Below, in pieces: positions 18,184-34,147 of a DNA stretch of 34,147 nt; the stretch's first letter is position 1; every line of letters begins with the position of its first letter. The DNA comes from Deltaproteobacteria bacterium (GTDB lineage: Bacteria; Desulfobacterota; Desulfovibrionia; Desulfovibrionales; Desulfovibrionaceae): positions 1-34,147 of the forward strand of contig JAISDX010000157.1 in the NCBI GenBank assembly GCA_031264465.1. Direction: 5' to 3'. Below the pieces are notes generated by a model. It saw only the letters and a program-made list of their open reading frames with translations, was not told where the DNA came from and did not search any database. The position numbers and the translations under genes were made by a program.

Positions 18184-18195
18184 GTCATCTCCTAA

Positions 18196-18242: not shown

Positions 18243-18428
18243 TTACCAGCTGGATTTACGTACGCCGGGCAGTTCGCCGTTGAGCGCCATCTTGCGGAAG
18301 CAAATACGGCACAGTCCGAACTTGCGCAGGTAAGCGCGCGGGCGGCCGCAAATGGGGCAACGGTTGTAGGCGCGGGAGCTGTATTTGGGCTTACGGGTAG
18401 CCTTTACTTCAAGAGATGTACGGGACAA
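18243..18428 (-). CDS. rpsN: 30S ribosomal protein S14, zinc-binding (type Z)
   Basis: A 61-residue S14 of the short zinc-binding type, with Cys24, Cys27, Cys40 and Cys43 and the usual '[23 protein letters not shown]' core. It helps build the 30S head. It follows rplE by 12 bases. Confidence 0.97.
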
Positions 18429-18440
18429 GGTCTCTCTCCT

Positions 18441-18980
18441 TTACTTTCTGAAAGGCAGGCCCAGGTGCTCAAGCAGCATCTTGCCTTCCTTATCCGTGGC
18501 GGCGGAGGTTACGATGGTAATGTTCATACCCTTGGCATTATCCACCCGGTCGGCTTCCAGTTCCGGAAAGATCGAGTGTTCCTTGATGCCCATGGTGAAG
18601 TTGCCTCTGCCGTCAAAGCCGCGGTCCGGAATGCCCCGAAAGTCGCGCACGCGCGGGAGCGCGAAGTTGAAGAGCTTGTCCAGGAAGTCCCACATGCGGG
18701 CGCCGCGCAAGGTAACGCGGCAGCCGATGGGCATGCCCTCGCGCACTTTGAAGGCCGCGACGGACTTCTTGGCGCGGGTTACCACCGCTTTCTGGCCGGC
18801 AATGGCGGTCAGTTCGGTGACGGCTTCTTCCATGAGCTTGTTGTTTTGGGACGCAGCCCCAAGACCAATGTTCAGCGAGACCTTCTCGAGGCCGGGAATC
18901 TGCATGGGCGACTTGTAAGCGAACTCGTCCCGCAGGGCCGGCACCACTTTCTCGCGGTATATTTTTTCAAGGCGTGTCAT
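18441..18980 (-). CDS. rplE: 50S ribosomal protein L5
   Basis: A 179-residue protein that binds 5S rRNA and contacts S13 and the P-site tRNA. Typical pieces are '[34 protein letters not shown]', '[22 protein letters not shown]' and '[18 protein letters not shown]'. Follows rplX by 11 bases. Confidence 0.97.
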
Positions 18981-18991
18981 CTGCGATCACC

Positions 18992-19312
18992 TTATCCAAT
19001 AGTTTTATTGCACTTCTTGCAGAAGCGGACTTTCTTGTCGTCTTCCACGCGATAGCCGACACGCACCGGACCGGCGCAGGCGTCACACATGACCATGACG
19101 TTGGAAACGTGAATGGGCATTTCCTTCTCGATAATGCCGCCGGCCTGCCGCTGGTAGGGGTTGGGGCGGGTGTGGCGCTTGGCCATGTTCACTTTTTCGA
19201 CCAGCACGCGGTCTTTCTTGCGCAGGACTTTCAAAACCTTGCCGATTTTGCCCTTGTCCTTGCCCACGGTGACCATCACGCGGTCGTCTTTACGAATGCG
19301 GTACTGTTGCAT
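18992..19312 (-). CDS. rplX: 50S ribosomal protein L24 with C-terminal zinc-finger-like motif
   Basis: A 106-residue initiator of 50S assembly with the KOW motif '[22 protein letters not shown]' at the N-terminus and 'MAKRHTRPN' after it. The C-terminal half carries two CxxC pairs (Cys76/79 and Cys98/101), a putative zinc ribbon seen in many bacterial L24 proteins. Follows rplN by 11 bases. Confidence 0.97.
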
Positions 19313-19323
19313 TGCGGAGTCTC

Positions 19324-19692
19324 CTAAAGAACCTCGGGCGCGAGGGACACAATCTTCATATAGTTTTTGGCTCTGAGCTCACGGGCCACCGGTCCGAAGA
19401 TACGGGTGCCCACGGGCTCGCCCTGCTTGGTGAGCAGCACGGCCGCGTTGTTGTCAAAGCGGATGTAAGAGCCGTCCACGCGGCGCACTTCTTTGGTCGT
19501 GCGCACGATAACCGCCTGCATCACGTCGCCCTTTTTCACCTTGCTGTGCGGCATGGCATCTTTCACGGTAACGACGATAACGTCGCCCACGGTGGCGTAA
19601 CGGCGGTGAGAGCCGCCCAGCACCTTGATGCAGGCAACTTCTTTTGCGCCGGAGTTATCCGCCACTTCAAGTCGGGATTCAACCTGGATCAT
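19324..19692 (-). CDS. rplN: 50S ribosomal protein L14
   Basis: A 122-residue protein at the subunit interface, bridging to 16S rRNA and binding the silencing factor RsfS. It begins '[27 protein letters not shown]' and contains '[32 protein letters not shown]'. Nine bases after rpsQ. Confidence 0.97.
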
Positions 19693-19701
19693 TTTGCGCT
19701 C

Positions 19702-19968
19702 CTAGACGGCTTTTTCCAAAATGGAAACTAAGTGCCAGCGTTTGGTACGGCTCATGGGGCGGAATTCGATAATCTGCACCTTGTCGCCGATGTTGCATTC
19801 ATTGGCCGGATCATGAGCGGCGTACTTCTTGTGGCGGCGGATGTACTTTTTGATCAGGGGGTGCTTGACCAGGGTTTCCACGTTCACAATGATGGTCTTG
19901 TCGCTCTTGTTGCTGACCACTATTCCTTCGAGCGTTCTGCCGTTTCTGTGTTCTACATTCACTGACAT
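19702..19968 (-). CDS. rpsQ: 30S ribosomal protein S17
   Basis: An 88-residue OB-fold protein binding helix 11 of 16S rRNA. Typical 'NGRTLEGIVVSNKSDKTIIVNVE' and 'HPLIKKYIRRHKKYAAHDPANECNIGDKVQIIEFRPMSRTKRW'. Four bases after rpmC. Confidence 0.97.
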   Translation of the reverse strand: MSVNVEHRNGRTLEGIVVSNKSDKTIIVNVETLVKHPLIKKYIRRHKKYAAHDPANECNIGDKVQIIEFRPMSRTKRWHLVSILEKAV

Positions 19969-19972
19969 TTCC

Positions 19973-20161
19973 TTACGCTCCCTTCTGCTTGAGAACGGTC
20001 ATGATTCTCGCGACATTACGCCGCGCCGCCGGAATTTCGGAAGTGTTCTCGAGCTGGGCGGTGGCGTGCTTGAAGCGGAGGTTGAAGAGCTCCTGGCGGC
20101 TTTCCGTCAGAGCCTTGTTCAGCTCCTCCACGCTTAATTTCTGCAGATCTTTAGCCTTCAT
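19973..20161 (-). CDS. rpmC: 50S ribosomal protein L29
   Basis: A 62-residue helical-hairpin protein near the exit tunnel, where it helps dock the signal recognition particle and trigger factor. It has '[30 protein letters not shown]' and '[20 protein letters not shown]'. Its ATG lies inside the end of rplP (11-base overlap). Confidence 0.96.
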
Positions 20162-20573
20162 TGTATCCCTCCCTGACCACGATGGCGGTCTTGATGGGGA
20201 GCTTGTGGGCGGCGCGGGTCAGGGCCTCTTTGGCCAGTTCCAGGCTGACGCCCTTGAGTTCATACATGATCCGGCCGGGCTTCACGGCGGCGTACCAGCC
20301 GGCCGGGGCGCCCTTGCCGGAACCCATGCGCACTTCCAGCGGTTTGGAGGTGTAAGGCAGATCCGGGAAAATACGGATCCAGACTTTACCGCCGCGCTTG
20401 ATGTGGCGCATCATCGCGATACGGGCCGCTTCAATCTGCTGGTTGGTGAGCTTGCCGTGCTCCAGAGCCTTGAGGCCGATATCGCCGAAAGCGATGTAAT
20501 GGCCGCCGGTGGCCGGGCCTTTGATGCGGCACTTCTGGCGCTTGCGGAATTTTACTTTTTTAGGACTGAGCAT
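20151..20573 (-). CDS. rplP: 50S ribosomal protein L16
   Basis: A 140-residue protein near the A-site tRNA elbow. '[57 protein letters not shown]' and '[24 protein letters not shown]' are the family signatures. It overlaps rpsC by 14 bases and rpmC by 11, a tightly coupled trio. Confidence 0.97.
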
Positions 20574-21213
20574 TGCTGTTCACCTCATCATCCATAAGTT
20601 CACCGCGGAACACCCACACTTTCACGCCGATTTTGCCGTAGGTGGTGTTGGCTTCGGCAAAACCGAAGTCAATGTCGGCGCGCAGGGTTTGCAGCGGCAC
20701 CCGGCCGTCGCGGTACCATTCGGTACGGGCGATTTCAGCCCCGGCCAGACGCCCGGCGCAGTTCACCTTGATGCCTTCGGCGCCGAACTTGCGGCTCATG
20801 GCCACGGTGCGCTTCATGGCGCGGCGGAAAGCCACGCGGCGTTCCAACTGCTGGGCGATGCTTTCGGCCACGAGTTGGGCTTCCACTTCGGGGCGGCGGA
20901 TTTCGTTAACTTCGATGGAAAACTCGCGGCCGAACCTGGCTTTCAAATCGCCGCGCAGTTTTTCAATTTCCACGCCTTTGCGCCCGATAACGATACCGGG
21001 GCGGGCGGTGTACAGGACAAGCCGTACCTTGCCGCCGGCGCGCTCAATTTCAATTTTGGACAAGCCCGCGCTAAAGAGCAATTTTTTGACGTAGTTGCGG
21101 ATCTTGTGATCTTCAAACACGAACCCGGCGTATTCCTTGGTGCTGTACCAGCGGGACTGCCAGTTCTTGTTGTAGCCGAGCCTGAACCCGTAGGGATGTA
21201 CTTTCTGACCCAT
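20560..21213 (-). CDS. rpsC: 30S ribosomal protein S3
   Basis: A 217-residue protein of the mRNA entry tunnel. N-terminal '[24 protein letters not shown]', the type-II KH domain loop '[19 protein letters not shown]' and the C-terminal '[34 protein letters not shown]' are all intact. Normal length. Starts five bases after rplV. Confidence 0.97.
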
Positions 21214-21218
21214 ATTTC

Positions 21219-21548
21219 CTAGTCCTCGAGAATCACGGTTATATGGCTGGTGCGCTTCAAAATGGTGTTGGCACGCCCCTGCGAACGGGGCATGAAGCGC
21301 TTCCAGGTGGGGCCTTCGTTGACGATGACCTGCTTAACCCTAAGGGTGTCCACGTCGGCCTTCTGATTTTCCTGGGCGTTGGCCAGGGCAGAATGCATCA
21401 CTTTGTAGATGATGCCGGCGGCCTTGTTGGGCGTGAACTTCAGGACATTCAGCGCGTCTTCCACCGGCATGCCGTTCACATTACGGGCAACCAGGCGGGC
21501 CTTGCGGGGCGACACGCGGATATATTTTGCGATAGCTTTAGCTTCCAT
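21219..21548 (-). CDS. rplV: 50S ribosomal protein L22
   Basis: A 109-residue protein whose beta-hairpin lines the exit tunnel. It begins '[36 protein letters not shown]' and ends '[25 protein letters not shown]', the usual tunnel-loop pattern. Follows rpsS by 15 bases. Confidence 0.97.
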
Positions 21549-21563
21549 GTCGTTACCTGTCCC

Positions 21564-21845
21564 CTAGCGTTTGGCCTTGCTTTTCTTGTCGGCGGCATGG
21601 CCGTGGAAGACGCGGGTAAGCGCGAACTCGCCGAGCTTGTGGCCGACCATGTTTTCCGTGACAAACACCGGGATGAACTTTTTGCCGTTGTGTACGGCGA
21701 AGGTGAGGCCCACCATCTCCGGCAGCACGGTGGAGCGGCGCGACCAGGTTTTAATGACGCGGCGGTCACTGTTGGTCTGGGCGGAGTCCACTTTCTTCAT
21801 CAAACTTACGTCCACAAAGGGACCTTTTTTAAGTGATCTGGGCAT
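21564..21845 (-). CDS. rpsS: 30S ribosomal protein S19
   Basis: A 93-residue protein of the 30S head that contacts S13. '[20 protein letters not shown]' and '[31 protein letters not shown]' are conserved. It lies 12 bases after rplB. Confidence 0.97.
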
Positions 21846-21857
21846 GCCTGACTACTC

Positions 21858-22688
21858 CTACTTCTTGCGGCGATCGGTAACGATCAGCTTGGAGGAAGCT
21901 TTCTTGCGGTTACGGGTCTTATAGCCCTTGGTGGGCACACCCCAAGGAGAAACCGGATGACGGCCGCCGGAGGAACGGCCTTCGCCGCCGCCCAGCGGGT
22001 GGTCGATGGGGTTCATGGCCACGCCGCGCACTTCCGGCCTCTTGCCCAGCCAGCGATTGCGGCCGGCCTTGCCGAGAGAGATGTTTTCCCACTGCAAGTT
22101 ACCCACCTGGCCGATGGTGGCCATGGCGGTCACCAGCACTTTGCGCACTTCGCCCGAGGGCATGCGCAGCGTGGCGTACTTGCCTTCGCGGGCCACAAGC
22201 TGGGCGTAGGTGCCGGCGGCGCGGCAAAACTGGCCGCCTTTGCCGGGGTGCAGCTCAATGTTGTGAATGTTCGTGCCCACCGGGATGCGGTTGATGGCCA
22301 TGGCGTTGCCGGGCTTGATATCGGCGCCTTCGCCGGAGAGGATCGTATCGCCCACGGCCAAGCCCACCGGGGCCAGGATGTAACGCTTTTCGCCGTCGAC
22401 ATAATGCAGAAGGGCGATGCGGGCGGTTCGGTTCGGATCGTATTCGATGGTGGCGACGCGGGCCGGAATGCCGGCCTTGTCCCGCCTGAAATCGATAATA
22501 CGGTAGAGCCGCTTGTGGCCGCCGCCGCGGCGGCGGCTGGTCACACGGCCGTAGTTGTTGCGGCCGGATTTTTTGGTCAGCCCCACGGTCAGGGATTTTT
22601 CCGGGCGGGCAGCGGTAATTTCCTCAAAGGTGAACACCGTCATGCCGCGGCGACCTGCCGAGGTGGGCTTAAGCTTTCTGATAGCCAT
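21858..22688 (-). CDS. rplB: 50S ribosomal protein L2
   Basis: A 276-residue protein near the peptidyl-transferase centre. The C-terminal '[20 protein letters not shown]' holds the conserved His, and the N-terminus '[24 protein letters not shown]' and '[20 protein letters not shown]' are standard. Length typical. Follows rplW by three bases. Confidence 0.97.
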
Positions 22689-22691
22689 TGC

Positions 22692-22982
22692 TTATACTCC
22701 CTCGAAGAATTCGATCTTTTCGCCCTGGGCCAGAGTGACGTAGGCTTTCTTGAAGCCGGCCACCTTGCCCACAACGCGGCCGTGACGAGTTTTCGGCCTG
22801 CTCTTGCGCACCACCACGTTCACGTCCACCACCTTCACATTGAAAGCCTGTTCCACGGCGCGCTTGATTTCCAGCTTGCCGGCGCGCGGGCTCACCATGA
22901 AGGCGACCTGGTTGTGGTCGTCGCGGATGAAGGTGGCTTTTTCAGTTACGACCGGCTTGAGAATGATTTGAGTGTAATCCAT
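22692..22982 (-). CDS. rplW: 50S ribosomal protein L23
   Basis: A 96-residue protein at the tunnel exit, the docking site of trigger factor and SRP. It has 'ILKPVVTEKATF' and 'NQVAFMVSPRAGKLEIKRAVEQAFNVKVVDVNVV'. Follows rplD by 13 bases. Confidence 0.97.
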   Translation of the reverse strand: MDYTQIILKPVVTEKATFIRDDHNQVAFMVSPRAGKLEIKRAVEQAFNVKVVDVNVVVRKSRPKTRHGRVVGKVAGFKKAYVTLAQGEKIEFFEGV

Positions 22983-22995
22983 AACTTGATCTCCC

Positions 22996-23616
22996 CTAGG
23001 CCAGCCGTTTGGTCACGCCTTCCACGGCTCCTTCAAGAATGATGAGCTGCGGATGGTTGATGATGTCGTACACGTTCAGCTCTTCCGGGGTGATCAGGGT
23101 TACGTTCCGGACGTTGCAGGCAGCGCGGTCCAGGGTTTCGTCGTAAGCCGGCACCACCACCAGGGCCTTCTTCCACTCCAGGCCGTTCGCGATTTTCGCG
23201 AAATGCCTGGTTTTGGCTTCGGGCAGCTCCAGGTTCTTGAGCACGGTGAGCTGGTTGTCCAGAAGGCGGACCGACAGGGCCATACGCAGGGCCAGGCGGC
23301 GCACCTTTTTGTTAACTTTGAAGGAATAGTCGCGCGGCGAAGGGCCAAAGAGCACCGCGCCGCCCGTCCACAAGGGCGAAATATTGGAGCCGGAGCGGGC
23401 GCGGCCGGTGCCTTTCTGGCGCCAGGGCTTGGCGCCGCCGCCTTTCATCATGGAGCGGGAAAGAGTGGAGTGGGTGCCGGCGCGCCAAGCGGCGCGCTGG
23501 GCCCGCACCACCAGGTGCAGAATTTCAGCGCGGGGCGCAACTTCGAACACTTCAGGCGCCAGGGTGATTTCGCCGGCTTCCTGCTTGTTCTGATCGATTA
23601 CTTTAATAGTGGCCAT
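22996..23616 (-). CDS. rplD: 50S ribosomal protein L4
   Basis: A 206-residue protein whose extended loop lines the tunnel. The loop 'GTHSTLSRSMMKGGGAKPWRQKGTGRARSGSNISPLWTGGAVLFGPSPRDYSFKVNKKVR' is a close match to the family. In Escherichia coli free L4 represses the S10 operon by acting on its leader RNA. Its start is 15 bases after rplC. Confidence 0.97.
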   Translation of the reverse strand: MATIKVIDQNKQEAGEITLAPEVFEVAPRAEILHLVVRAQRAAWRAGTHSTLSRSMMKGGGAKPWRQKGTGRARSGSNISPLWTGGAVLFGPSPRDYSFKVNKKVRRLALRMALSVRLLDNQLTVLKNLELPEAKTRHFAKIANGLEWKKALVVVPAYDETLDRAACNVRNVTLITPEELNVYDIINHPQLIILEGAVEGVTKRLA

Positions 23617-23631
23617 GACTCTCTCTCCTAC

Positions 23632-24261
23632 CTACTGCTTGCGCACCATGACCAGGCCGTTCTTGGGGCCGGGTATGGCGCCCTTGACCAGGATCACGTT
23701 TTCTTCGGGGCGAATGGCGACAATGGTGAGATTGATCGTGGTAACACGCTTGGCGCCGAGCTGGCCGGCCATCTTCTTGCCCTTCCAGATTTTGGAGGGC
23801 TCGGTGTTGTTACCAATGCTGCCCGCGCTGCGGTGCACTTTTTCAGCGCCGTGGGAACTGGACGCGCCTTTGAAGTTCCAGCGCTTCATCACGCCGGCGG
23901 TGCCTTTACCAATGCTCTTGCCGGTAACCTTCACCAGGTCGCCGGGGGTGAACAGTTCCACGGTGAGGTCGTCGCCCACCCGGTATTCGGCCGGGTTTTC
24001 CAGGCGCAGTTCACGCATGGCGCGGAACATGCCCTTGCCGGCTTTCGCGCAATGACCGGCCAAGGGCCGCGTCATGTGCTTTTCTTTAGCTTCGATGTAG
24101 CCGATTTGCAGCGCGTTGTAGCCGTCGCGCTCCATATCTTTGATCTGCAAGACCGGGCAGGGGCCGGCCTGAATGACGGTAACCGGCACGGAAACGCCGT
24201 TGCCGTCGAACACGCGGGTCATGCCGAGCTTGCGCCCAAGAATTCCGAGTTTTTCAGCCAT
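23632..24261 (-). CDS. rplC: 50S ribosomal protein L3
   Basis: A 209-residue early-assembly protein of the 50S subunit, beginning [18 protein letters not shown] and carrying '[40 protein letters not shown]', the PrmB-methylated Gln region in other species. The ATG at 24261 follows a run of six G. An in-frame ATG overlapping the rpsJ stop at 24273 adds four residues and cannot be excluded. Confidence 0.96.
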
Positions 24262-24272
24262 GACGCCCCCCA

Positions 24273-24590
24273 TTACAGTTTGATTTCAACGTCCACGCCG
24301 GCCGGGAGCGAAAGCTTGCCCAGAGCGTCAACGGTTTGCTGCGTGGGCTCGAGGATGTCCATGAGCCGCTTGTGAACGCGCATTTCAAACTGTTCACGAG
24401 ATTTTTTGTCAGCGTGCACGCTACGGTTCACGGTGACTTTGTTGATATTGGTGGGCAGAGGAATCGGCCCGGCCACGCCGGCGCCGGTATTACGCGCCGT
24501 ATCCACGATTTCCGCCACCGCTTTGTCGAGGATGCGGAAATCGTAAGCCTTGAGCTTGATCCTGATACGATCACTGCTAACTGCTGTCAT
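24273..24590 (-). CDS. rpsJ: 30S ribosomal protein S10
   Basis: A 105-residue protein of the 30S head that also joins NusB and NusG in antitermination. Family signatures are '[41 protein letters not shown]', '[23 protein letters not shown]' and the end '[11 protein letters not shown]'. GGAG lies six bases before the ATG at 24590, so that is the start rather than 24602. First gene of the S10 operon, with a very long leader. Confidence 0.97.
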
Positions 24591-24620
24591 TGTTTTCTCC
24601 ATGCTCTGGAACGTATGCCG

Positions 24621-24640
24621 CCCGACCCGAAACGGTCGGG
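24621..24640. other. GC-rich hairpin in the S10 leader near rpsJ
   Basis: cccgacc at 24621-24627 pairs with ggtcggg at 24634-24640. It has no T-run, so it is unlikely to be a terminator by itself. Confidence 0.55.
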
Positions 24641-24905
24641 CCGCGGCGTAGCCATTTCAAGGGGAAACTCGCCTTGCGGATTTACTGATGGGATTTGCGG
24701 CTGGCCTTATTGACAACCGGTTCCTTCACACCGTTACGAGTCGCCCGTTTACGCCAGCCTGCCGGGGGCGCGAATTTTAAACCCGCGCTGCTGGGGCAGG
24801 AGATGCAGGGCACAAAAACAAAGCAGACGGGTCCTTTCGGATTCCCGCCGCCCTTTGTGAACCTGCAAATATCAAACCTGGTTGGCGTAGTACAACCAAG
24901 CGCAC

Positions 24906-24928
24906 CGGAGCGGCGTTCAACCGCTCCG
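24906..24928. other. GC-rich hairpin in the S10 leader, distal
   Basis: cggagcgg at 24906-24913 and ccgctccg at 24921-24928 form a perfect 8-bp stem with a 7-base loop. No T-run follows on the minus strand. Confidence 0.55.
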
Positions 24929-25072
24929 CCGGGGGGCCGGCAAAATCAAAGCCGCTATCCCGTTCCCGGCAGCGTTCTCGCACCAGCTCCCCCAGAGGAC
25001 CAGACCTTTCGGCTCGTTCGTGGCGGTGGCCAAGGAAAATCCGGGCAGGATTCTTCCATGATGCGAGGGGAG

Positions 25073-25132
25073 TTAATACAATTTGAAAGCCGGATGGTCA
25101 AGCGCTTTTTGGATTTTTTTGATTTTTTTTTT
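25073..25132 (-). promoter_or_regulatory. Strong sigma70-type promoter with A-tract UP element for the S10 operon
   Basis: On the minus strand TTGACC (25101-25096) and TATTAA (25078-25073) are 17 bases apart. Directly upstream of the -35 box, 25106-25132 is an almost pure A-tract on the minus strand, with runs of 5, 7 and 10 A. That is the place and composition of an UP element bound by the alpha subunit C-terminal domain, as found at rRNA and ribosomal protein promoters. The start point would be near 25066. Found by eye. Confidence 0.65.
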
Positions 25133-25159
25133 GCCGCGTTCGGGCAATGTTTAAAAACC

Positions 25160-25189
25160 TTGCTGGAATGCAGGCGCTGATGGTAATAT
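25160..25189 (+). promoter_or_regulatory. Weak candidate promoter of the vWA gene
   Basis: TTGCTG at 25160-25165 and TAATAT at 25184-25189 are 18 bases apart, 45 bases before the start of the vWA gene. Matches are modest (three and four of six). Confidence 0.3.
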
Positions 25190-25234
25190 CGTCGACAGGG
25201 GAAGCAACTACAAAAATTCTTTTCAGGAGAAAAC

Positions 25235-26401
25235 ATGCGCGGTTGTAAAAAATTTGTGTTTTGCCCAGCCTTGTGCCTGGCTTTTGCTTTGGCGCTCTGC
25301 CTGGCGACCGCTACGGCGGCGTTCGCCCTGGGCGAAAAGCCCGACCGGGAAGCGGTGGAAAAAGTGAAGCCCCGGGTGGAGGTGGCTTTCGTGCTGGACA
25401 CCACCGGTTCCATGGCCGGCCTGATTGAAGGCGCCAAAAAGAAAATCTGGTCCATGGCCAATACCATCGTGGATCAGAACCCGGAAGCCGACATCTACGT
25501 CGGCCTGGTCGGCTACCGCGACCTGGGCGACGAATACGTCACCAGGCACTTTCCCCTGACCACCGACATCCAGCAAATTTACGGCGAACTGCTCACCTTC
25601 CGGGCCGAGGACGGCGGCGACACGCCCGAATCGGTGAACGAGGCCCTGGACGTGGCCGTCAGCCAACTCGGCTGGAGCGATCCGCAAGACGTCACGGCCA
25701 GCCGCATCATCTTTCTGGTGGGCGACGCCCCGCCGCACATGGATTACAAACAGGACCGCAAATACCACGAAGTGATCCCGGAAGCCGTGCAAAAAGGCAT
25801 TATCGTGAATACCGTGCAGTGCGGCGACATGCAGTCCACCACCGCCATCTGGAAGGAAATGGCCCGGCTCGGCAAGGGCGAGTATATGGCCATCCCGCAG
25901 GACGGCGGCCAGGTGGTGGTCATCGACACCCCGTATGACGTCACCATCCGGGAAATCCAGATCAAGATCAACAAAACCGTGATTCCTTACGGGAGCGTCC
26001 CACAGCAACGCGCGGTGGAAGAAAAGGGCCGGATGTACGAGGCGGCCCCCGCCTCCACTTCGGCCGACATGACTTCTTTCGTGAGCAAGAGCGGCAAGGG
26101 CGCCAAGGCCGTGACCGGCCGGGGCGACCTCGTGGCCGACTCCAAGACGGACAAGGAACTGCTCAAGAACGTCAAGGACGAAGAACTGCCGGAAAACCTG
26201 CAAAAAATGTCCGCCAAGGAACGCGAGGACTACCTGGACAAGCAGTCCAAAGAACGCGAGGACCTGACCGGCCAGTTGGCCGCGCAGGTGAAAAAGCGCG
26301 ACGACTACATAAAAAGCAAAACCGCCGAAGCCGAGTCGACCGCCCCGGCGGACAGCTTTGACGCCAACGTCAGCAAAACTCTGAAGGAACAGATCAAGTA
26401 G
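25235..26401 (+). CDS. Secreted von Willebrand factor A (vWA) domain protein
   Basis: A 388-residue protein. The signal peptide spans ~1-32: basic start, then 'LCLAFALALCLATATAAFA' with an AxA-type cut after ~Ala31. A vWA domain follows (about 48-235): the MIDAS start 'AFVLDTTGSMAGLI', the Thr loop 'GGDTPESVNEAL' and 'IIFLVGDAPPHMDY'. vWA domains bind partners through a metal ion. The C-terminal third is very rich in Lys, Glu and Asp and likely a coiled coil ('KEREDYLDKQSKEREDLTGQLAAQVKKRDDYI'). Location is periplasmic or outside; the partner is not evident. AGGAG six bases before the ATG supports the start. It is a single gene on the plus strand. Confidence 0.88.
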   Translation: MRGCKKFVFCPALCLAFALALCLATATAAFALGEKPDREAVEKVKPRVEVAFVLDTTGSMAGLIEGAKKKIWSMANTIVDQNPEADIYVGLVGYRDLGDEYVTRHFPLTTDIQQIYGELLTFRAEDGGDTPESVNEALDVAVSQLGWSDPQDVTASRIIFLVGDAPPHMDYKQDRKYHEVIPEAVQKGIIVNTVQCGDMQSTTAIWKEMARLGKGEYMAIPQDGGQVVVIDTPYDVTIREIQIKINKTVIPYGSVPQQRAVEEKGRMYEAAPASTSADMTSFVSKSGKGAKAVTGRGDLVADSKTDKELLKNVKDEELPENLQKMSAKEREDYLDKQSKEREDLTGQLAAQVKKRDDYIKSKTAEAESTAPADSFDANVSKTLKEQIK

Positions 26402-26422
26402 CTTCAGCGCTCTACTTTCAAG

Positions 26423-26494
26423 GAAAGGCTGATTAATGGTTTTTTTGCTCCTTGGCCGCGCCAGGAAACAAAAATCCTCATTAACCAGCCTTTC
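26423..26494. repeat. 72-bp imperfect palindrome between the vWA and PurF-like genes
   Basis: Left arm 26423-26456 and right arm 26460-26494, separated by a 3-base centre. About 27 of 34 positions can pair, with outer 9-bp and 6-bp perfect blocks (gaaaggctg and ttaatg), an internal loop and an inner block ending ggc-cgc-gcc. No T-run follows either arm, so it is not a standard terminator, though the long hairpin may still end both convergent transcripts. It abuts the stop codon of the PurF-like gene. Confidence 0.75.
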
Positions 26495-27901
26495 TCATAA
26501 CCCGTAGCTGGAGCCGTCCCAACAGTGAGTGCAGAGCTTTTCCTTGGGCAGGCCGATGGCCTTGACCAGGTTGTCCAGCTTCTGGAATTTGAGGGAGCTC
26601 AAATGGAACCGTTCCCGAATCCATTCGGTCAGTTCCGCGTTTTTGGGGTCGGCGGCGTTCACGTAGCGCTCGATGTTCCGCCCCTCTTCGCCTTCCAGGG
26701 CCAAAATCGCCTTCAGCCCCATAAGCTCCAGCGCCGAGCGCGAAGAGGAGAAATTGAGAAACTTGCAGGGATAGACCAAGGTCGGGCAGGCGATGCGGGC
26801 GTGCACTTCCTTCGCCCCGTGCTGATAAAGAACCTGGATGTTGTCTTTAAGCTGGGTGCCGCGCACGATGGAATCGTCCAGGAAGATCATGCGCTGGCCG
26901 CGAATCAGGGCCTGGTTGGGAATAAGCTTCATCCTGGCCACCAACTCGCGCTGGGCCTGGTCCTGCGGCATGAAGCTGCGCGGCCAGGTGGGCGTGTATT
27001 TGACCAGGGGGCGCTGGTAGGGCAGGTGGCGCCGGTTGGAGTAGCCGACGGCATGGCCGATGCCGGAGTCGGGAATGTCGCAGACGCAGTCGGCCTCCAC
27101 GTCGTCTTCCGCGCCCAGGGCCGCGCCGCAGCGGTAGCGGCAGGCCTCGACGTTTATGCCTTCGTAGCTGGAGGAGGGGTAGCCGTAGTACACCCAGAGG
27201 AACGAGCAGATCTGCATCCTGCCGCCGGGCGGGACAATGCTTTCCCAGCCCTCGGGACTGACGAACACCGCCTCGCCGGGGCCGAGGTCGCGCACCGGCT
27301 CGAAACCGATGTTGTAAAAGGCGCTGGATTCGGAGGAGAGCGCCCAGCCGTCGTCCTTGCGGCCCAAGACCAGGGGAGTGCGGCCCAGGAAGTCGCGGCA
27401 GCCGTAAATGCCCTTTTCCGTCATGATCATGAAGGTGCAGGAGCCTTTCACCTTGGCCTGCACCGCCCGGATGCCGTCCGCGAACGAGCCTTCGCGGCTC
27501 AGGAGCATGGCGATGATTTCCGTGGGTCGCACTTTGCCGCTGGCCGAGCGGTTGAAGGTGTAGCGGTGGCGCCCGGCTTCGGCGATAAGTTCGTCGGCAT
27601 TGGTTATGTTGCCCACGGTGACCAGAGAAAACGGCCCCAGGTGGGCGGAAAAGGTCAGGGGCTGGCTGTCGGTGTCGCTGATGGCGCCCAGGCCGATGTT
27701 GCCGCCGAGGTCTTTCAGGTTGGGTTCCAGCTTGTTGCGGAAGTAGCTGGATTCCAGAAAATGCACCCGGGTGGTGAAGCCGGCCTTGCCGATCACGGCG
27801 AGCCCGCCCCGCTTGGTGCCCAAGTGCGAAAGGTAGTCCGTGCCGTAAAAAAGATCGTTCAGGCAGTCGTTCTGCCTAATAACGCCGAAAATGCCGCCCA
27901 T
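26495..27901 (-). CDS. PurF-like amidophosphoribosyltransferase lacking the glutaminase nucleophile
   Basis: A 468-residue homologue of PurF, which makes 5-phosphoribosylamine from PRPP and glutamine. The phosphoribosyltransferase half is well kept: 'CDIPDSGIGHAVGYS' (274-288) and the PRPP loop 'FLDDSIVRGTQ' (340-350). Four Cys (232 in 'ICSF', 379 in 'YPCKF', 457 and 460 in 'CTHC') align by eye with the 4Fe-4S ligands of the Bacillus subtilis enzyme. The Ntn glutaminase half is degenerate: the start reads MGGIFGV instead of MCGI, the Arg region is 'LGAISDTDS' and the NGN loop is 'VGNITN'. The ATG at 27901 is right after GGAGG. From memory similar proteins occur in other anaerobes. Function unproven; ammonia-dependent activity is one option. 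Confidence 0.85.
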   Translation of the reverse strand: MGGIFGVIRQNDCLNDLFYGTDYLSHLGTKRGGLAVIGKAGFTTRVHFLESSYFRNKLEPNLKDLGGNIGLGAISDTDSQPLTFSAHLGPFSLVTVGNITNADELIAEAGRHRYTFNRSASGKVRPTEIIAMLLSREGSFADGIRAVQAKVKGSCTFMIMTEKGIYGCRDFLGRTPLVLGRKDDGWALSSESSAFYNIGFEPVRDLGPGEAVFVSPEGWESIVPPGGRMQICSFLWVYYGYPSSSYEGINVEACRYRCGAALGAEDDVEADCVCDIPDSGIGHAVGYSNRRHLPYQRPLVKYTPTWPRSFMPQDQAQRELVARMKLIPNQALIRGQRMIFLDDSIVRGTQLKDNIQVLYQHGAKEVHARIACPTLVYPCKFLNFSSSRSALELMGLKAILALEGEEGRNIERYVNAADPKNAELTEWIRERFHLSSLKFQKLDNLVKAIGLPKEKLCTHCWDGSSYGL

Positions 27902-28078
27902 GTCTCCTCCAGTCTCGAGCCTATCCAAAAAAAGGACTTTCATTAACCACCATCGGGCCGCCCTTGTCCATATGTTTTTACGGGCCGGCCTTTTGTCCTT
28001 GATCTTTCAGGGCGGTCATGCTTCTTTCATGGATATGCGCGGACAGAGGCTAACTTCATGCCAAACAGGAGAAAGATC

Positions 28079-28873
28079 ATGAAATATGGCTTTATCGGGC
28101 TGGGGAATATGGCTTCGGCCATTATCCGGGGGCTGGTGAAAAACGGCGTTCCCGGCGCCGACATTTACGGCAGCGGCGCCCGCCCGGCCACCGGCCAGGC
28201 CCTGGCCGGGAGCGTGGGCCTGAATGCCTGCGCCGGGAACGCCGCGGTCGTCGCAAGCGCCGACGTGATCGTCCTGGCCGTGAAGCCCCAGGTGCTGCCG
28301 GGCGTGCTGGAGGAAATCAAGGCCCTGCCCCTGGACGGCAAGCTCTTTATTTCCATCGCCGCCGGGCTCACGCTGGCTTGGTTGCGCGGCAGCCTTGGCC
28401 CGGTGCCCCTTGTACGGGTTATGCCCAACATCAATTCCAAGATTGGCGCGGCCACCAGCCTGCTGTGCGCCGGGCCGGACGCCAACGAGGAGCAGGTGCG
28501 GATCGCGCGCGAAATTTTCAGCACCGTCGGCACGGTCAGCGATATCCCCGAACACTTGTTCGCGGCCGCCACGGCCATTTCCGGCGCCTCGCCGGCCTTC
28601 ACCTACATGTACATAGACGCCATGGCCCGAGCCGCGCTGCGTTTTGGCCTGCCCAGGAAGCTGGCCTTGAAAATCGCGGCCAGCTCCGTTGCGGGAAGCG
28701 CCAGGATGATTCTGGAATCGGACGAACACCCGATGAGCCTGGCCGATCAGGTCTGCTCGCCGGCCGGGACTACTATCGCGGGCGTTGTTTCGTTGCAGCG
28801 GAACGCCTTTGAGAGCGCGGTGCATCAGGCGGTCGAGGCGGTTATTTTGCGGGATCGCGAAATCGCCAGATAG
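28079..28873 (+). CDS. proC: Pyrroline-5-carboxylate reductase
   Basis: A 264-residue NAD(P)H-dependent enzyme of the last step of proline synthesis. The Rossmann start 'KYGFIGLGNMASAIIRGLV', the 'VVASADVIVLAVKPQVL' and 'RVMPNINSKIGAATSLL' loops and the C-terminal 'SLADQVCSPAGTTIAGVVSLQ' are typical. AGGAG about seven bases before the ATG at 28079 supports this start over the in-frame 28058. It stands alone, divergent from the PurF-like gene and convergent with rfaE2. Confidence 0.95.
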   Translation: MKYGFIGLGNMASAIIRGLVKNGVPGADIYGSGARPATGQALAGSVGLNACAGNAAVVASADVIVLAVKPQVLPGVLEEIKALPLDGKLFISIAAGLTLAWLRGSLGPVPLVRVMPNINSKIGAATSLLCAGPDANEEQVRIAREIFSTVGTVSDIPEHLFAAATAISGASPAFTYMYIDAMARAALRFGLPRKLALKIAASSVAGSARMILESDEHPMSLADQVCSPAGTTIAGVVSLQRNAFESAVHQAVEAVILRDREIAR

Positions 28874-28890
28874 TTTTTTGCCGGCGGTCC

Positions 28891-28936
28891 TGCCTTTCCT
28901 AAGGAAACGCAGATAAGCGGCGTTTCCTTAAAGGCA
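28891..28936. terminator. Hairpin between proC and rfaE2, probable terminator
   Basis: An 11-bp perfect stem (28900-28910 with 28920-28930) with a 9-base loop, extended after a 3-base bulge by six more pairs (28891-28896 with 28931-28936). The right arm covers the rfaE2 stop codon. A clear T-run is missing after the arms, so efficiency is uncertain. Confidence 0.55.
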
Positions 28937-29410
28937 CCGAATCTTCTCAATAAGCGCGGTAGTCGAGTACCCGGCCAAAAGCGGCAGGGACAGCACTTTC
29001 CCCCCGTCGGCCTCGACAAGATCGCGGCCGGCAATCCGGTCCGGGGACCAATCCCCGCCTTTTACCAGCACCTGCGGCCGCAGCGCCGCAATCAATTCGC
29101 GCGGGGTATCTTCCTCGAAACCGACGATGAAATCGACCGCCGCCAAATGCGCCAGCACAAAGGCCCGCTCCGCGAACGGCACCACCGGCCGGGCCGGCCG
29201 CTTGCCCTGGCGACTGACGGAAGCGTCGCTGTTCAGGCCGAGAATCAGCTTGTCGCCCAGAGCTTTGCAACGGGCCAGAAAATCCACGTGGCCGGGGTGC
29301 AGCAGGTCATAGCAGCCGTTGGTGAAGACGAACTTCCGCCCGTCCCGGCGCAGCGGCGCAAGGACGGGCAGAAGGTCTGAGCGGGTGTATAGCTTCGGAT
29401 TGTTCAGCAC
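28928..29410 (-). CDS. rfaE2: D-glycero-beta-D-manno-heptose 1-phosphate adenylyltransferase
   Basis: A 160-residue stand-alone adenylyltransferase (the C-terminal half of HldE in enterics) making ADP-heptose for LPS core. The nucleotidyltransferase motif is 'FTNGCYDLLHPGHVDFL' with HPGH at 38-41; 'NSDASVSRQGKRPARPVVPFAERAFVLAHL' and 'VLVKGGDW' follow. The kinase half (RfaE1) is not in the window. GTG at 29410 overlaps the trpS stop as TAGTG, so it is translationally coupled to trpS. ADP-heptose made here would be the donor of GT9 enzymes such as that at 5198-6889. Confidence 0.93.
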   Translation of the reverse strand: MLNNPKLYTRSDLLPVLAPLRRDGRKFVFTNGCYDLLHPGHVDFLARCKALGDKLILGLNSDASVSRQGKRPARPVVPFAERAFVLAHLAAVDFIVGFEEDTPRELIAALRPQVLVKGGDWSPDRIAGRDLVEADGGKVLSLPLLAGYSTTALIEKIRCL

Positions 29411-30432
29411 TATCTGTAATAGCCGATTTTCATGGCCTGGCGCACCGCCTGCATGGTCAGGACTATTTCCCGGCGCGCCTTTTCGTTGCCGGCCATGATC
29501 ACGTCGCGCACGCAGTTCGGCTTGGCGTCAATCCTGGCCCGGCGTTCCTGGATCGGCTCAAGGAAGCGCTTCAGGCCGTCAATCATGATCTGCTTGCACT
29601 CCACGCAGCCCATGGCGGCGCTGGCGCAGCCCTCGCGGATTTTTTCCCGGGTGGGCGCGTCGGTGAGCAGTTCGTGATACGGATAAAGGTTGCATTCGTC
29701 CGGGTTGCCCGGGTCGGTGCGGCGCAGCCGGTTTTTGTCCGTGAGCATGCCGCGCACCTTGGGCGTGAGCGACTTGATGCTGTCGGTCAGGAAAATGCCG
29801 TTGTCGTAGCTCTTGGACATCTTGCGCCCGTCCAGGCCGGGACACTTGGGCGAAGGCGTAAGGCGGGCCTGGGGCTCGGGAAAGACGTTGCCGTAAAAGT
29901 TGTTGAAACGGCGGGCTATTTCCCGCGACAGCTCCAGGTGCGGCTCCTGGTCGATCCCCACCGGCACCCAGCGGGCGCGCACGATGATAATATCGGCCGC
30001 CATCAGCACCGGGTAGCCGAGAAAGCCGTAATTGGTCAGATCCTTGCCCACGATGTTCTGGAGCTGCTCCTTGTAGGTGGGGCAGCGCTCCAGCCAACCC
30101 AGGGGCGTGACCATGCCGAGCAGCAAATTGAGCTCGGCCAGCTCCGGCATGTGCGATTGCAGGTAAATGGCGCTGACTTCCGGGTCTATGCCCACGGCCA
30201 ACCAGTCTTTGACCATGCTCTCGACGTATTCGCCAATGCCGGAGGTGTCCTCATAATTGCTGGTCAGGGCGTGCCAATCCACCACGAAGAAAAAGCTTTC
30301 GAGCTCGTGCTGCATTTCGACCCAGTTCTTGAGGGCGCCGAAATAGTGTCCGATGTGGAGAGGCCCGGTGGGACGCATGCCGGAAGCCACGCGCTTGTCC
30401 GGATCATGCTGACAATTGAGGAACGTGTTCAT
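29410..30432 (-). CDS. trpS: Tryptophan-tRNA ligase
   Basis: A 340-residue class Ic aminoacyl-tRNA synthetase. The HIGH motif is PLHIGHYFG (HIGH at 26-29) and the KMSKS motif is intact at 204-208 ('GRKMSKSYDN'). 'GYPVLMAADIIIVRARWVPVGIDQEPHLELSREIARRFN' is the usual dimer/ATP region. Normal length. A good promoter lies upstream, with a 50-base leader. It is coupled to rfaE2 by a TAGTG overlap. Confidence 0.96.
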   Translation of the reverse strand: MNTFLNCQHDPDKRVASGMRPTGPLHIGHYFGALKNWVEMQHELESFFFVVDWHALTSNYEDTSGIGEYVESMVKDWLAVGIDPEVSAIYLQSHMPELAELNLLLGMVTPLGWLERCPTYKEQLQNIVGKDLTNYGFLGYPVLMAADIIIVRARWVPVGIDQEPHLELSREIARRFNNFYGNVFPEPQARLTPSPKCPGLDGRKMSKSYDNGIFLTDSIKSLTPKVRGMLTDKNRLRRTDPGNPDECNLYPYHELLTDAPTREKIREGCASAAMGCVECKQIMIDGLKRFLEPIQERRARIDAKPNCVRDVIMAGNEKARREIVLTMQAVRQAMKIGYYR

Positions 30433-30489
30433 AATACCGCCTGTTTTGGAAAGGTTGCAGAAAACGGCGCTCGGAACGCCGGCGAGGAG

Positions 30490-30518
30490 AATATAAGAAG
30501 AAATCAGTATAATGACAA
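30490..30518 (-). promoter_or_regulatory. Sigma70-type promoter of trpS-rfaE2
   Basis: On the minus strand TTGTCA (30518-30513) and TATATT (30495-30490) are separated by exactly 17 bases, each with five of six matches. The -35 box lies within the last codons of the M50 protease gene. Confidence 0.7.
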
Positions 30519-31196
30519 GCCGAAGACCGAGAAGAGCAAATTGGCGCCGTAGAACACCGGCGGCACCAGAACGTGGCGCAGCGCCCCGGCGATGAGCAGC
30601 ACCAGGATGATCAACAGGCCGAAGCGCCCCAGGCTCATGTAGGCGTTCGCCAGGCGGGCGGGCAGGAGCGAAGCCAGCACCTTGCTGCCGTCCAGCGGCG
30701 GGATGGGCAGCAGGTTCAGCACGGCCAGGGTGAGGTTGATGAATACGCCCATGACGCAGGTGTTGATGATGAAGCTGTTGCTCATGTAAACCAGCGGCAT
30801 GGCGGGCGTGCCCGAAAGCGGCACGGCCAGGCAGGCGATGCCGGCGAAACCGGCGGCCAGAAGGATGTTGGCCCCGGCTCCGGCCAGAGAGACGGCCAAA
30901 AGCCCCTGGCGCAGGTTGCGGAAGTTGCGCGGGTTGATCGGCACCGGCTTGGCCCAGCCGAATATGAACGAAGCGCCGGTCAGGCTGCTGGTGATGGCGG
31001 TCAGGACGAATACGAAAAGCCCCATGGGGTCAATGTGCGGCAGCGGGTTGATGGTGATGCGGCCGCTGTGGCGGGCGGTGGGGTCGCCAGCTTTTTCGGC
31101 CACCCAGCCGTGAGCGACTTCGTGGCAGATCATGCCGAGCATGAACGGGATGAACCCGATGCTGATATAATAAAAGGCCTGGGAGAGACTTTCCAT
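30504..31196 (-). CDS. Site-2 protease family (M50) membrane metalloprotease
   Basis: A 230-residue membrane protein with about five to six hydrophobic segments. The zinc site is complete: HEVAH at 25-29 in the first segment ('GMICHEVAHGW') and the partner Asp169 in 'NLLPIPPLDGS'. This is the compact, PDZ-less type of M50 enzyme that cuts proteins within the membrane; substrates are unknown. The start at 31196 has no clear ribosome-binding site, but the first residues read as a membrane segment, supporting it. It follows the receiver gene by 66 bases, separated by a GC-rich hairpin. Confidence 0.9.
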   Translation of the reverse strand: MESLSQAFYYISIGFIPFMLGMICHEVAHGWVAEKAGDPTARHSGRITINPLPHIDPMGLFVFVLTAITSSLTGASFIFGWAKPVPINPRNFRNLRQGLLAVSLAGAGANILLAAGFAGIACLAVPLSGTPAMPLVYMSNSFIINTCVMGVFINLTLAVLNLLPIPPLDGSKVLASLLPARLANAYMSLGRFGLLIILVLLIAGALRHVLVPPVFYGANLLFSVFGLSLY

Positions 31197-31220
31197 AACG
31201 CGTTATTTTACATAAACCAC

Positions 31221-31244
31221 CGGCCCGGCGCCAGCGCCGGGCCG
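31221..31244 (-). terminator. GC-rich hairpin after the receiver gene
   Basis: A perfect 10-bp stem (31221-31230 with 31235-31244) with a 4-base loop, 18 bases after the stop of the receiver gene. On the minus strand it is followed by GGTGGTTTATGT, a poor T-run, so it is a probable but not certain terminator. Confidence 0.6.
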
Positions 31245-31262
31245 TATTGGCTGTGCGGGCGG

Positions 31263-31640
31263 CTACTGGCCGGCGCCGGTTTTATTTTTCAATATATTGC
31301 GGATCTTCTCCCTGAGTTCGGTCAAATCCACGGATTTAACGACATAACCGTCCGCCGCGATGGATTTGAGGTCGTACTGGAAACTGTCGTAGGCGGTACT
31401 CAGGATTACCGGCAGGTTCGGATAGGGACCGCGCAGAGTTTGCAGCAGATCCAGGCCGGAAATGTTCGGTTCGATTTTAATATCCAGGACAATCAGATCC
31501 GGCGCTTCGCGGGCGATGAGGTCGACAATCGGTTCCTGTCCGTCGGACATGGCCACCAGGTAACCTTCGTGGGTCAGCTCTTCCTGATAAAGCATGCGGA
31601 TATGAAGTTCATCATCAATGACGAGAAGTTTTTGGGCCAT
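31263..31640 (-). CDS. Stand-alone response-regulator receiver protein
   Basis: A 125-residue single-domain receiver of the CheY type with all key residues: Asp9 and Asp10, phospho-acceptor Asp53 in 'LIVLDIK', Thr82 in 'LSTAYD' and Lys102 in 'VVKSVD'. There is no output domain, so it must act by protein-protein contact, for example in a phosphorelay or on the flagellar motor or a kinase. No histidine kinase is nearby. GGAGG five bases before the ATG at 31640 supports the start. It has a good promoter of its own. Confidence 0.93.
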   Translation of the reverse strand: MAQKLLVIDDELHIRMLYQEELTHEGYLVAMSDGQEPIVDLIAREAPDLIVLDIKIEPNISGLDLLQTLRGPYPNLPVILSTAYDSFQYDLKSIAADGYVVKSVDLTELREKIRNILKNKTGAGQ

Positions 31641-31679
31641 GGCTGCCTCCTGCTCTCCGGTTCGGGGCTATTTATCAAA

Positions 31680-31708
31680 AATATATAGTGCCTGCGCAGT
31701 CTTAGCAA
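31680..31708 (-). promoter_or_regulatory. Sigma70-type promoter of the receiver gene
   Basis: On the minus strand TTGCTA (31708-31703) and TATATT (31685-31680) are separated by exactly 17 bases, four and five of six matches. About 40 bases before the start codon. Confidence 0.6.
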
Positions 31709-31782
31709 GGCTTTCCAGGCAAAATTACACGCCCCCGGCCAAAAAAACGGCGCTAAAGCAAACCCTAAACGGAAACAGTTAT

Positions 31783-34147
31783 TTATTCAACCGTAAACTC
31801 GGCCACCCGCACCCGCTCTTTGGCGTTTTCCAGCCGCAGGGTGCTGCGCTCCTCTTGCTGCTCCGACGTGCCGAACTTGCTCTGCACGGTCAGCATCATG
31901 GTCACTTCGCCGGCGATGGTCTGGCTGGAGCTGCCGTAATAATTGACCTCCACCCGGTATTTGCCGGGCGCGGCCTTTTTCAGCATGAATTCTTCCGGCC
32001 CGTAACCCTGGGTGCAGTCCAGGCTCATCCGCCCGCCCAGGCGGGTAAGCCGGTTGCTGTAGCCGGCGGCTTCGCCGTCAGGTGAAATAATCCACAGGTC
32101 CATGTCGGTATTGTCCATGTCCCAGGCCAGAACCACCCGGATGTCAGAAGCCAGGTTCCTGACCAGGCGAGCATCGATGGCCCCGCTGTTCACCTGGTTG
32201 CCGGAGCGGGCAATCAGCGCATTCATCTCGGTCAGGGCGATGGTGTTGACCTCGCCGAAACGGTCGGACCAGGCCCGGCGGGCGGTTTCGTAGAGCAGGT
32301 CCACGGCGGCCTGGGTGTTGCCCAGGCCGGCCTGAACCTGCGCGATGTCCCGTAGCGACTGCGGCTCATACGGGGCCAGATCTCGCACCTGCTCCAACAC
32401 CGGCAGGGCCAGGGCCATTTCGCCCGCCTGCATCAGCCGGTAGGCCAGCATACGCAACACTTGCCGGTTTTCCAACCGCATTTCGGCCAGGTTGGAAAGC
32501 ACGCGCAGCCCCAGTTCCTTCAGGCCGCGCTCGAAAAAGCGGTCGGCCACGTCCATGAAAAAAACGCTGCTGTTGCGGTAAGCCGGGCGCTCGTCCAGGT
32601 ACACGGCGTAGAGTTCGTCGTCCCTGGCCGCTTTCAGACGGGCGATGTAAGACGCATCCGACACCCAGGGCCGCAGTTCGATGCCCACGGCCGCGCCCGG
32701 CCCGGCCCGGTCGCCGGGAGCCGGCGCGGGCCGGGCTTCTTCAAGTTCCGCCCGGGAAACGGCGCCGGAGCCGATCACCGCCTGTTCCGGCGACAAGGAC
32801 GCCCAGTCCCGGGGCGAGGCTGCGGCATTCCCGGCCGCAGTGCTCAGGTCGAACGCCGAAGTCGGGCTTCCCTCCTTTTTGGACTCCTGCCCTTTCTTGG
32901 GGAACGAAGTCTCCCACCACCGCACTTTTTCCAGCCACAGGGCGGCCAGCCGGTCGTCGCTCAGGCGCTGCCCGCCGCCGGCGGGCTCGCGCTGGCGGCG
33001 CAGGGCTTCCACCCGCTCCCGGAGCGCGGCCGGCGGCGCCACGCCGTAACGCGCGTAATCCTCCGCCGTTTCCAGGACAATCAGCGAAGTTTCGCGGCTG
33101 ACAATGCCGAATTCCTCGCCCAGCCGGGCAATGGCCAGCTTGTTGGCACGCCGGTCCGCCTCCAGGGCGGCGATTTTGTAGCGCCCCCACAGGCGGGCCT
33201 CCAGGGGAGCCTGCTGGGGGGAGCCGTCGCCGCCGGCCTCGTCCGCCTGCTCCCAGGCCGGCAGAGGCAGAGGCCGCTCGCTGACGGAGCCGTCCGGCCA
33301 GCGCAGGCGCAACGCCAGGGATCTGGCCGCGCCGCGCTTCACCCAGCCGGCCAGGCGGCAAAAGCCCGCCTGCCCGTTCTGCTCACTTGAGGGCGTCAGG
33401 TAAGCGCAAGCCGGGTCCAAGGCCGTCTCGCCCGCGCCGGCAAGCGAAGCGTCGAGCACACTCACCTGCGCCCCTTCCAGCAAGAGCTTTTGCGCGGCCA
33501 GTTCCACCGGCTCGTGCGCCAGATCAATTACCGCGCCGCGCTCGGCCAGGCCGCGCAGGACGGCGTAATCGGCCGTGGCTGAGGAATTGACGGCGAACAG
33601 GCGCCGGGGTTGGTCCAGCTTGGGGAAACTCGCGCCGCCGTAATTGGACACCCCGTCGGAAAACAGCAGGAACTCGGAACAATCGGCCGCGGGCCGCCAA
33701 TCCGCCAAGTTGGTGGCGCCGTCGTAAACCAGCCCGTGCAGGGCTTCTTTAAGCCCGCTCCAGTTTCCGTCACGCACGGTGAAGCTGCGGGCCGGTTCGG
33801 CCTGGTCGCGCAGGATCACCAGGCGCGCCTCGCCGGAACCGAAGGCCTGAAAATATCGGTCGAGCAGGGCGTACTCCCCGGCCAGGTCGCGCCCGAGGCT
33901 GGAGCCGGAAGCGTCCCAGAGCAGGGTCACCTTGTCCGGCAAAACGCGTTTTACCGCTGGCACGGCCAGATAGGCCGCGCTGCTGAAGTAAAGCTTGTCC
34001 CGCCACCGGACGGCTGTGAGGGAGCCAACCGGCGAATCCGGAAAAGCCGGCGCCGGCAGCGAAATATCCAGCCAGCCTTGCGGCGTGATCTCCTTCTTTT
34101 CCACCTTGCCGCGCCAGAGCGTACCGGCACGTTGCAGGGTCAGTCCC
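31783..34147 (-). CDS. Large vWA and DUF2135 domain protein, N-terminus cut by the window edge
   Basis: The frame is open to the right edge (34147), so the N-terminus is missing; about 788 residues are seen. The visible part starts before 'EKKEITPQGWLDISLP', then a vWA domain with MIDAS motif 'TLLWDASGSSLGRDL', the Thr loop 'DGATNLADW' and 'FLLFSDGVSN'. A middle region of unclear structure follows, with an Ala/Pro-rich stretch, then TPR-like helices ('LRMLAYRLMQAGEMALALPVLEQV...'), and a C-terminal DUF2135 domain ('DNTDMDLWIISPDGEAAGYSN' to 'GKYRVEVNYYG'). Such proteins often begin with a VIT domain; that part would lie off the window. Likely envelope-located; function unknown. No strong terminator follows it. 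Confidence 0.82.
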   Translation of the reverse strand, partial: GLTLQRAGTLWRGKVEKKEITPQGWLDISLPAPAFPDSPVGSLTAVRWRDKLYFSSAAYLAVPAVKRVLPDKVTLLWDASGSSLGRDLAGEYALLDRYFQAFGSGEARLVILRDQAEPARSFTVRDGNWSGLKEALHGLVYDGATNLADWRPAADCSEFLLFSDGVSNYGGASFPKLDQPRRLFAVNSSATADYAVLRGLAERGAVIDLAHEPVELAAQKLLLEGAQVSVLDASLAGAGETALDPACAYLTPSSEQNGQAGFCRLAGWVKRGAARSLALRLRWPDGSVSERPLPLPAWEQADEAGGDGSPQQAPLEARLWGRYKIAALEADRRANKLAIARLGEEFGIVSRETSLIVLETAEDYARYGVAPPAALRERVEALRRQREPAGGGQRLSDDRLAALWLEKVRWWETSFPKKGQESKKEGSPTSAFDLSTAAGNAAASPRDWASLSPEQAVIGSGAVSRAELEEARPAPAPGDRAGPGAAVGIELRPWVSDASYIARLKAARDDELYAVYLDERPAYRNSSVFFMDVADRFFERGLKELGLRVLSNLAEMRLENRQVLRMLAYRLMQAGEMALALPVLEQVRDLAPYEPQSLRDIAQVQAGLGNTQAAVDLLYETARRAWSDRFGEVNTIALTEMNALIARSGNQVNSGAIDARLVRNLASDIRVVLAWDMDNTDMDLWIISPDGEAAGYSNRLTRLGGRMSLDCTQGYGPEEFMLKKAAPGKYRVEVNYYGSSSQTIAGEVTMMLTVQSKFGTSEQQEERSTLRLENAKERVRVAEFTVE

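Follow-up and report, generated by a model that had tools for sequence, protein, structure and literature searches.

A core-less IS5-type MITE at a convergent gene junction of a Desulfovibrionaceae bacterium and the conserved hairpin core of its family

What is the long palindrome that lies between two converging genes of a Desulfovibrionaceae genome (Deltaproteobacteria bacterium, assembly GCA_031264465.1), and is it more than a place where transcripts end? The contig that carries it (JAISDX010000157.1; 34,147 nucleotides, hereafter the window) had been annotated from its letters alone. This preliminary description marked an imperfect 72-base palindrome at positions 26423-26494 and proposed a miniature inverted-repeat element (MITE), a REP element or a long bidirectional hairpin. 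The structural claims are borne out. The palindrome forms a single imperfect hairpin of 72 nt over its whole extent, with 16-nt outer arms (26423-26438 and 26479-26494) that are 94% complementary and separated by 40 nt. Folding energies are -31.1 kcal/mol on the plus strand (z = -6.1) and -39.6 kcal/mol on the minus strand (z = -8.1), and none of 200 dinucleotide shuffles was as stable on either strand, confirming a real palindrome far above chance expectation. The junction is convergent, as had been described, between a VWA-domain gene (plus strand) and a PurF-like gene (minus strand) whose TGA stop (26497-26495 on the minus strand) is in contact with the right arm; the reported lack of a T-tract also stands, as neither strand has a T-run downstream of the stem. 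The extent needs one amendment, in that the palindrome is as given and the mobile unit starts one base earlier, at 26422 (GGAAAGGCTGATTAATG, 26422-26438). The PurF-like protein has an identical C-terminal end point in two relatives without the element, as does the VWA protein in one, so the element is located behind natural stops. Coordinates of all features are collected in Table 1.

Table 1. Features of the element and its surroundings in the window.
Feature	Position	Strand	Remark
VWA-domain gene	25235..26401	+	Stop codon 21 bases ahead of left arm
Left terminal inverted repeat, GGAAAGGCTGATTAATG	26422..26438	+	14 of 15 letters equal to the IS5-family end GGAAACGCTGATTAA, counted from the sequences
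Inner stem and 3-nt centre (CGC, 26457-26459)	26439..26478	none	Remains after core loss
Core-loss junction, ...GGCCGCG / CCAGGAAAC...	26460..26461	none	From alignment with full-length copies
Right terminal inverted repeat, GAAAGGCTGGTTAATG on the minus strand	26479..26494	-	
PurF-like gene, GATase_7 domain	26495..27943	-	TGA stop abuts the element

The palindrome belongs to a dispersed repeat family. A 90-base query returned 56 matches in the host genome (2.27 Mb), and 42 distinct places were fetched. Of these, 31 have the two halves and a complete or partial core, three hold palindromes without the core (the window copy, L002 and L003), and eight are one-ended. Full-length copies measure about 145-157 bp and consist of a structured core between two terminal inverted repeats of ~17 bp; family members overall span 72-157 bp, are short and carry no transposase gene, as is usual for MITEs. 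In the window copy, GGCCGCG is fused straight to CCAGGAAAC (26460/26461), where full copies hold ~80 further bases. The window feature is thus a core-less IS5-type MITE from which ~80 bases in the middle of the full-length form are missing; that it is a deletion derivative, and that full copies have a conserved core, had been missed by the preliminary description. In L003 a deletion from one CAGG motif to another could account for the loss, and L002 has the right-arm type in both arms. Retrotransposition, which would leave 5'-truncated copies, was considered and dropped, the RNA 3' end being kept in seven truncated copies and the 5' end in two, numbers too small to use. Plasmid, phage and IMG/VR collections gave no match to the family. 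As a separate observation, at L025 (G000:C34:14935) and L179 (G000:C171:764) a lone terminal repeat ending in TTAATG or TTAATCATG is followed by open sequence, and may provide or position a start codon there.

The arms represent IS5-type terminal inverted repeats, and 26422-26494 belongs to a set of dispersed non-autonomous elements. The end pattern GGRARNGCTGATTAA occurs 17 times in the host genome, compared to none for a reversed control, and was present in 8 of 16 genomes searched. In a congener (G001) the pattern flanks an IS5-family transposase gene, so that the GGAAACGCTGATTDA ends are common to the MITEs and an autonomous insertion sequence (IS). The left end of this IS reads CTAA|GGAAACGCTGATTAAAG in L176 (the left end also follows CTAA in L152) and its right end TTAG|GGAAACGCTGATTTATT in L182; the two ends were taken from two copies, and the copy with the left end is without its first ~15 codons. 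The transposase scores 215 bits against NF033581 (cut-off 140) and also matches PF01609. This transposase was found in 2 of the 18 genomes searched; the IS is not intact in the host genome, where the gene survives only as a 37-aa remnant (G000:C119:919-1032, L181; 73% identity to the congener's protein).

Copies in the host genome are flanked by YTAR-like 4-mers. In a comparison of 30 copies (the other 12 places being one-ended, damaged or unclear in their ends), left and right flanks of length 4 agree at 72 of 120 letters, compared to 57.8 after permutation (p = 0.0006), and the match peaks at exactly 4, with no other length close. The expected target duplication is therefore seen for the family; the window copy itself has none that is recognizable (TATG / TTGA, 1 of 4 letters). 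No empty site was found among relatives without the element behind purF and the VWA gene, where gene order is not syntenic. Two other genomes, G004 (L153, L160, L166, L171) and G085 (L149, L157, L164, L169, L174), have IS5-type ends around unrelated GC-rich insides, which in L166 is a near-perfect palindrome of ~56 bases.

Copy number and ends bear directly on the two simpler explanations. If the palindrome did no more than terminate transcription in both directions between the converging VWA and purF genes, its stable hairpin and convergent position would be as expected, but there is no T-run behind the stem, the palindrome is absent from a terminator scan of 18000-34147, and dozens of copies exist, many outside convergent gene pairs. 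The preliminary description had tied a mere terminator to uniqueness in the genome, and the family occupies at least 42 places; a repeat family refutes termination as the full explanation, which we regard as very improbable. The REP suggestion fares no better. Palindromes of the REP/BIME type, mobilized by a Y1 (RAYT) transposase, would also be extragenic and fold strand-specifically, as the present ones do, yet Y1 elements are not known to make target duplications, whereas a 4-bp one is present here, on elements of 145-157 bp with IS5-type ends. Judged by length and ends, the family lies outside the REP/BIME class of 20-40-nt palindromes linked to a RAYT gene, and this origin is scarcely credible. 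The MITE suggestion, by comparison, agrees with the many genomic copies, the IS5-type ends and the duplication, and a MITE family with a structured core is the reading that we hold with high confidence.

Comparison of full copies suggests where conservation in this family lies. An alignment of full copies from the host genome and three others has 147 columns, in which RNAalifold finds 53 pairs, 27 of them with double compensating changes; in genome G014 the outer arms vary from copy to copy and nearly always retain complementarity. The core was described by two covariance models, R1 (37 sequences) and R2 (40 sequences). Across the alignment of 40 sequences, pairing holds in 91.5% of cells, compared to 65.9% in shuffles, and double changes occur in 241 cells, compared to 64.6; neither value was reached in 500 shuffles, and structures slid along the alignment reach at most 48.6% paired. 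Two internal loops are almost invariant, the first with CAAGGA(A) opposite UGACGCAG, the second with GAAGUGUA opposite UACAUGAG. These G/A-rich loops may be read as tandem G/A pairs.

The core folds better on one strand, and this holds for 34 of the 36 host-genome sequences that are 60 nt or longer (both exceptions being truncated), for all 14 loci of other families and for all 48 further copies. Outer arms have balanced mismatches (13 wobble G.U pairs and 10 A.C mispairs), which is what DNA ends should show. For the inner stems (A1), the fold of this strand yields 96 G.U and 5 A.C pairs, and the fold of the other strand 3 G.U and 28 A.C. The raw imbalance arises partly because the pairs were chosen by folding this strand; when only Watson-Crick-majority pairs are counted, 18 G.U and 4 A.C remain. 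We take the strand preference of the core to be real and smaller than the raw count implies. Overall, the core is a conserved hairpin with covarying stems and one better-folding strand.

Two further ideas about the core were abandoned. A small open reading frame (MSFARGEPDA-like) was dropped, as changes in the stems follow pairing. L129, L131, L132, L266 and L271 were considered as a single orthologous site with compensation in place; this was rejected, since L271 has arms of both types and the pattern could stem from two adjacent copies. Individual copies also have additions: L204 and L213 (G014), of 192-193 bp and with ends of the second type described below, have an extra side hairpin between both conserved loops, and in L067 (G014:C1:1839146) a different palindromic repeat of ~70 bases is nested within the core.

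The core reaches well beyond the host genome. Covariance-model E-values are rough; with this reading, R1 matched 66 of 247 genomes and 22 of 44 genera of the taxonomic family (E <= 0.001), and, at class level, 76 of 348 genomes, three other families included (E <= 0.0001), the latter set being checked in 10 genomes picked for being matches. In a phylum sample, R2 matched 29 of 395 genomes and 17 of 246 genera (E <= 0.00001). Named carriers include the isolate Desulfovibrio cuneatus DSM 11391, Desulfovibrio sp. OttesenSCG-928-C06 and several metagenome-assembled genomes. None of the 16 loci scanned against Rfam 15 gave a match on an element, and a literature search, which left most subscription papers out of reach, turned up no account of the element family.

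The same core is carried between different ends. A second element type has this core between GGTAGYGGCTCARTTTG ends (L092, L095, L097), and flanks of these ends at length 8 agree at 123 of 208 letters, compared to 56.9 by permutation (0 of 3000 permutations), with a peak at exactly 8; the test used 26 end pairs, some of them without a core, and counted one locus twice with two left ends. L092, L095 and L097 have perfect 8-mer duplications. Elements with GGAGCTGTTTCTAAAT ends in genomes G235 and G160 have TA on both flanks in most of 14 cases. Since this one core is carried by MITEs with two or more duplication lengths, two or more types of transposase are implied. In genome G068 the core is located in a 16S-23S rRNA spacer (L134, 1501-1576), with 16S rRNA on one side and tRNA-Ile/tRNA-Ala on the other, and its structured strand is in rRNA sense. 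Several additional loci are listed here for completeness. Two further places in G068 score equal to L134; L261 (G069:C1, copies at 1144482-1144997) and L262 show tandem arrays, with four cores 146-147 bases apart and a second pair at a spacing of 128 bases; and the host genome has a 54-bp element with second-type ends (GGTAGTG...CACTACC) and a CTGCGTCAGG core remnant (G000:C124, L265, near 10167-10220).

The window copy touches a stop codon, and so do many others: 19 of the 34 host-genome copies examined have either end at a stop (0-8 bases away, one overlapping by 3). Fixed targeting of stop codons was considered and is weakened, since many extragenic YTAR sites are stop codons anyway (16 of 51 in the window, 30 of 132 in host-genome loci); target choice together with selection accounts for much of the contact. 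The orientation of the contact is a separate matter. Among cored host-genome copies with only one end touching a stop, it is the 3' end of the better-folding strand in 13 cases and the 5' end in one (p = 0.002). In 62 loci from other genomes the hand count is 26 to 3, or 23 to 3 without three loci that share a site with another locus (p = 0.00009), and a third set of 48, which has nine loci in common with the second, gives 16 to 3 (p = 0.004); all p values are from two-sided binomial tests, with genes called by a simple purpose-made gene caller. Relative to the gene at whose stop codon the element lies, the folded strand therefore tends toward antisense orientation. The mRNA of that gene then contains the strand with less structure, a poor fit to a simple 3'-UTR role of the folded strand. 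Genes at the 5' end have no favoured direction (16 same, 16 opposite).

With the ends, spread and orientation in hand, two readings of the core compete with one based on RNA. The core could be retained because its DNA, when single-stranded in replication or transposition, forms a hairpin; the wobble preference (G.T in this case) would then mark the DNA strand that must fold. DNA too forms G.T pairs and tandem G/A loops, the element is mobile, and the even split of 5' neighbours is in its favour. Against this, the classical transposases that make 4- and 8-bp duplications act on double-stranded ends and not on folded hairpins, and in G235, a single contig, the 19 copies listed show no strand switch between chromosome halves (7 to 4 and 6 to 2, compared by eye from coordinates with the origin assumed near position 1). 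We consider a DNA hairpin unlikely, though a serious competitor. Alternatively, the compensating changes may come from template switching in a DNA quasi-palindrome only, with no selection on a folded strand. Such a switch would yield an element like L002, with its two right-type arms, and is consistent with the absence of strand preference in the outer arms; however, the inner pairs retain wobbles of one strand, and the two fixed, mispaired G/A loops persist where correction would erase them. This origin seems to us improbable.

A bolder reading, to which we give slightly less than even odds, is that the core may be a structured RNA module found phylum-wide, carried in MITEs of different transposases with exchangeable ends, and acting on adjacent transcripts and, in one genome, on pre-rRNA. 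In the more general reading of a MITE family with a structured core, IS5-type and other transposases would have mobilized the elements in trans, and the symmetric arms would be retained because a transposase requires two equal ends. The core would be retained as a folded single strand, most probably RNA, produced by read-through or, in one genome, within pre-rRNA. Its likeliest role would be that of a cis-acting RNA structure that makes insertions tolerable beside genes, for example as a site for a double-strand RNase or for protein binding. The window copy, having lost its core, is probably inert except as a hairpin in the purF 3' UTR.

Bacterial MITEs are usually seen as decayed insertion sequences with an unimportant inside, whereas here the inside is the conserved part: its stems have been repeatedly rewritten while pairing and two internal loops were kept, and the ends that determine the transposase have been exchanged. 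Whether small mobile elements carry selected RNA becomes testable through this family, and with the covariance models, hundreds of so far unannotated intergenic loci could be labelled in sulfate reducers and related bacteria. We file the family as new, a MITE variant set apart by its core.

Among known systems, the closest for the ends are IS5-family insertion sequences (NCBIfam NF033581), represented by the congener's IS, which likewise has the GGAAACGCTGATTAA terminal repeat and a YTAR-like target; the present elements differ in having no transposase, with a mere remnant in the host genome. Prokaryotic MITEs such as Correia/NEMIS, ERIC and QMITE1/2 are described, in the part of a 2024 review available to us, as short, multi-copy and intergenic, with terminal inverted repeats, target duplications, stable folded transcripts, known truncated derivatives and, for Correia elements, RNase III cleavage (PMC10969869). 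As far as that part goes, the present family is like them in size, copy number, intergenic sites, repeats, duplications, predicted folded transcripts and truncated forms, and no conserved core common to elements with different ends is described there. What sets it apart from MITEs in general is one covarying, fixed-loop core common to different ends and duplication lengths, phylum-wide. Geobacter uraniireducens, host of the Chunjie MITE, is in the same broad bacterial group as the hosts of this family. Chunjie, according to the same portion of the review, is similar in its many intergenic copies, size variants and partial copies and differs in length (178-235 bp), a comparison by description (PMC10969869). 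Rickettsia palindromic elements, in the same partial account, are ~150-bp palindromes of similar size and copy number that lie in frame inside genes (PMC10969869), whereas the elements described here are intergenic and often abut stop codons.
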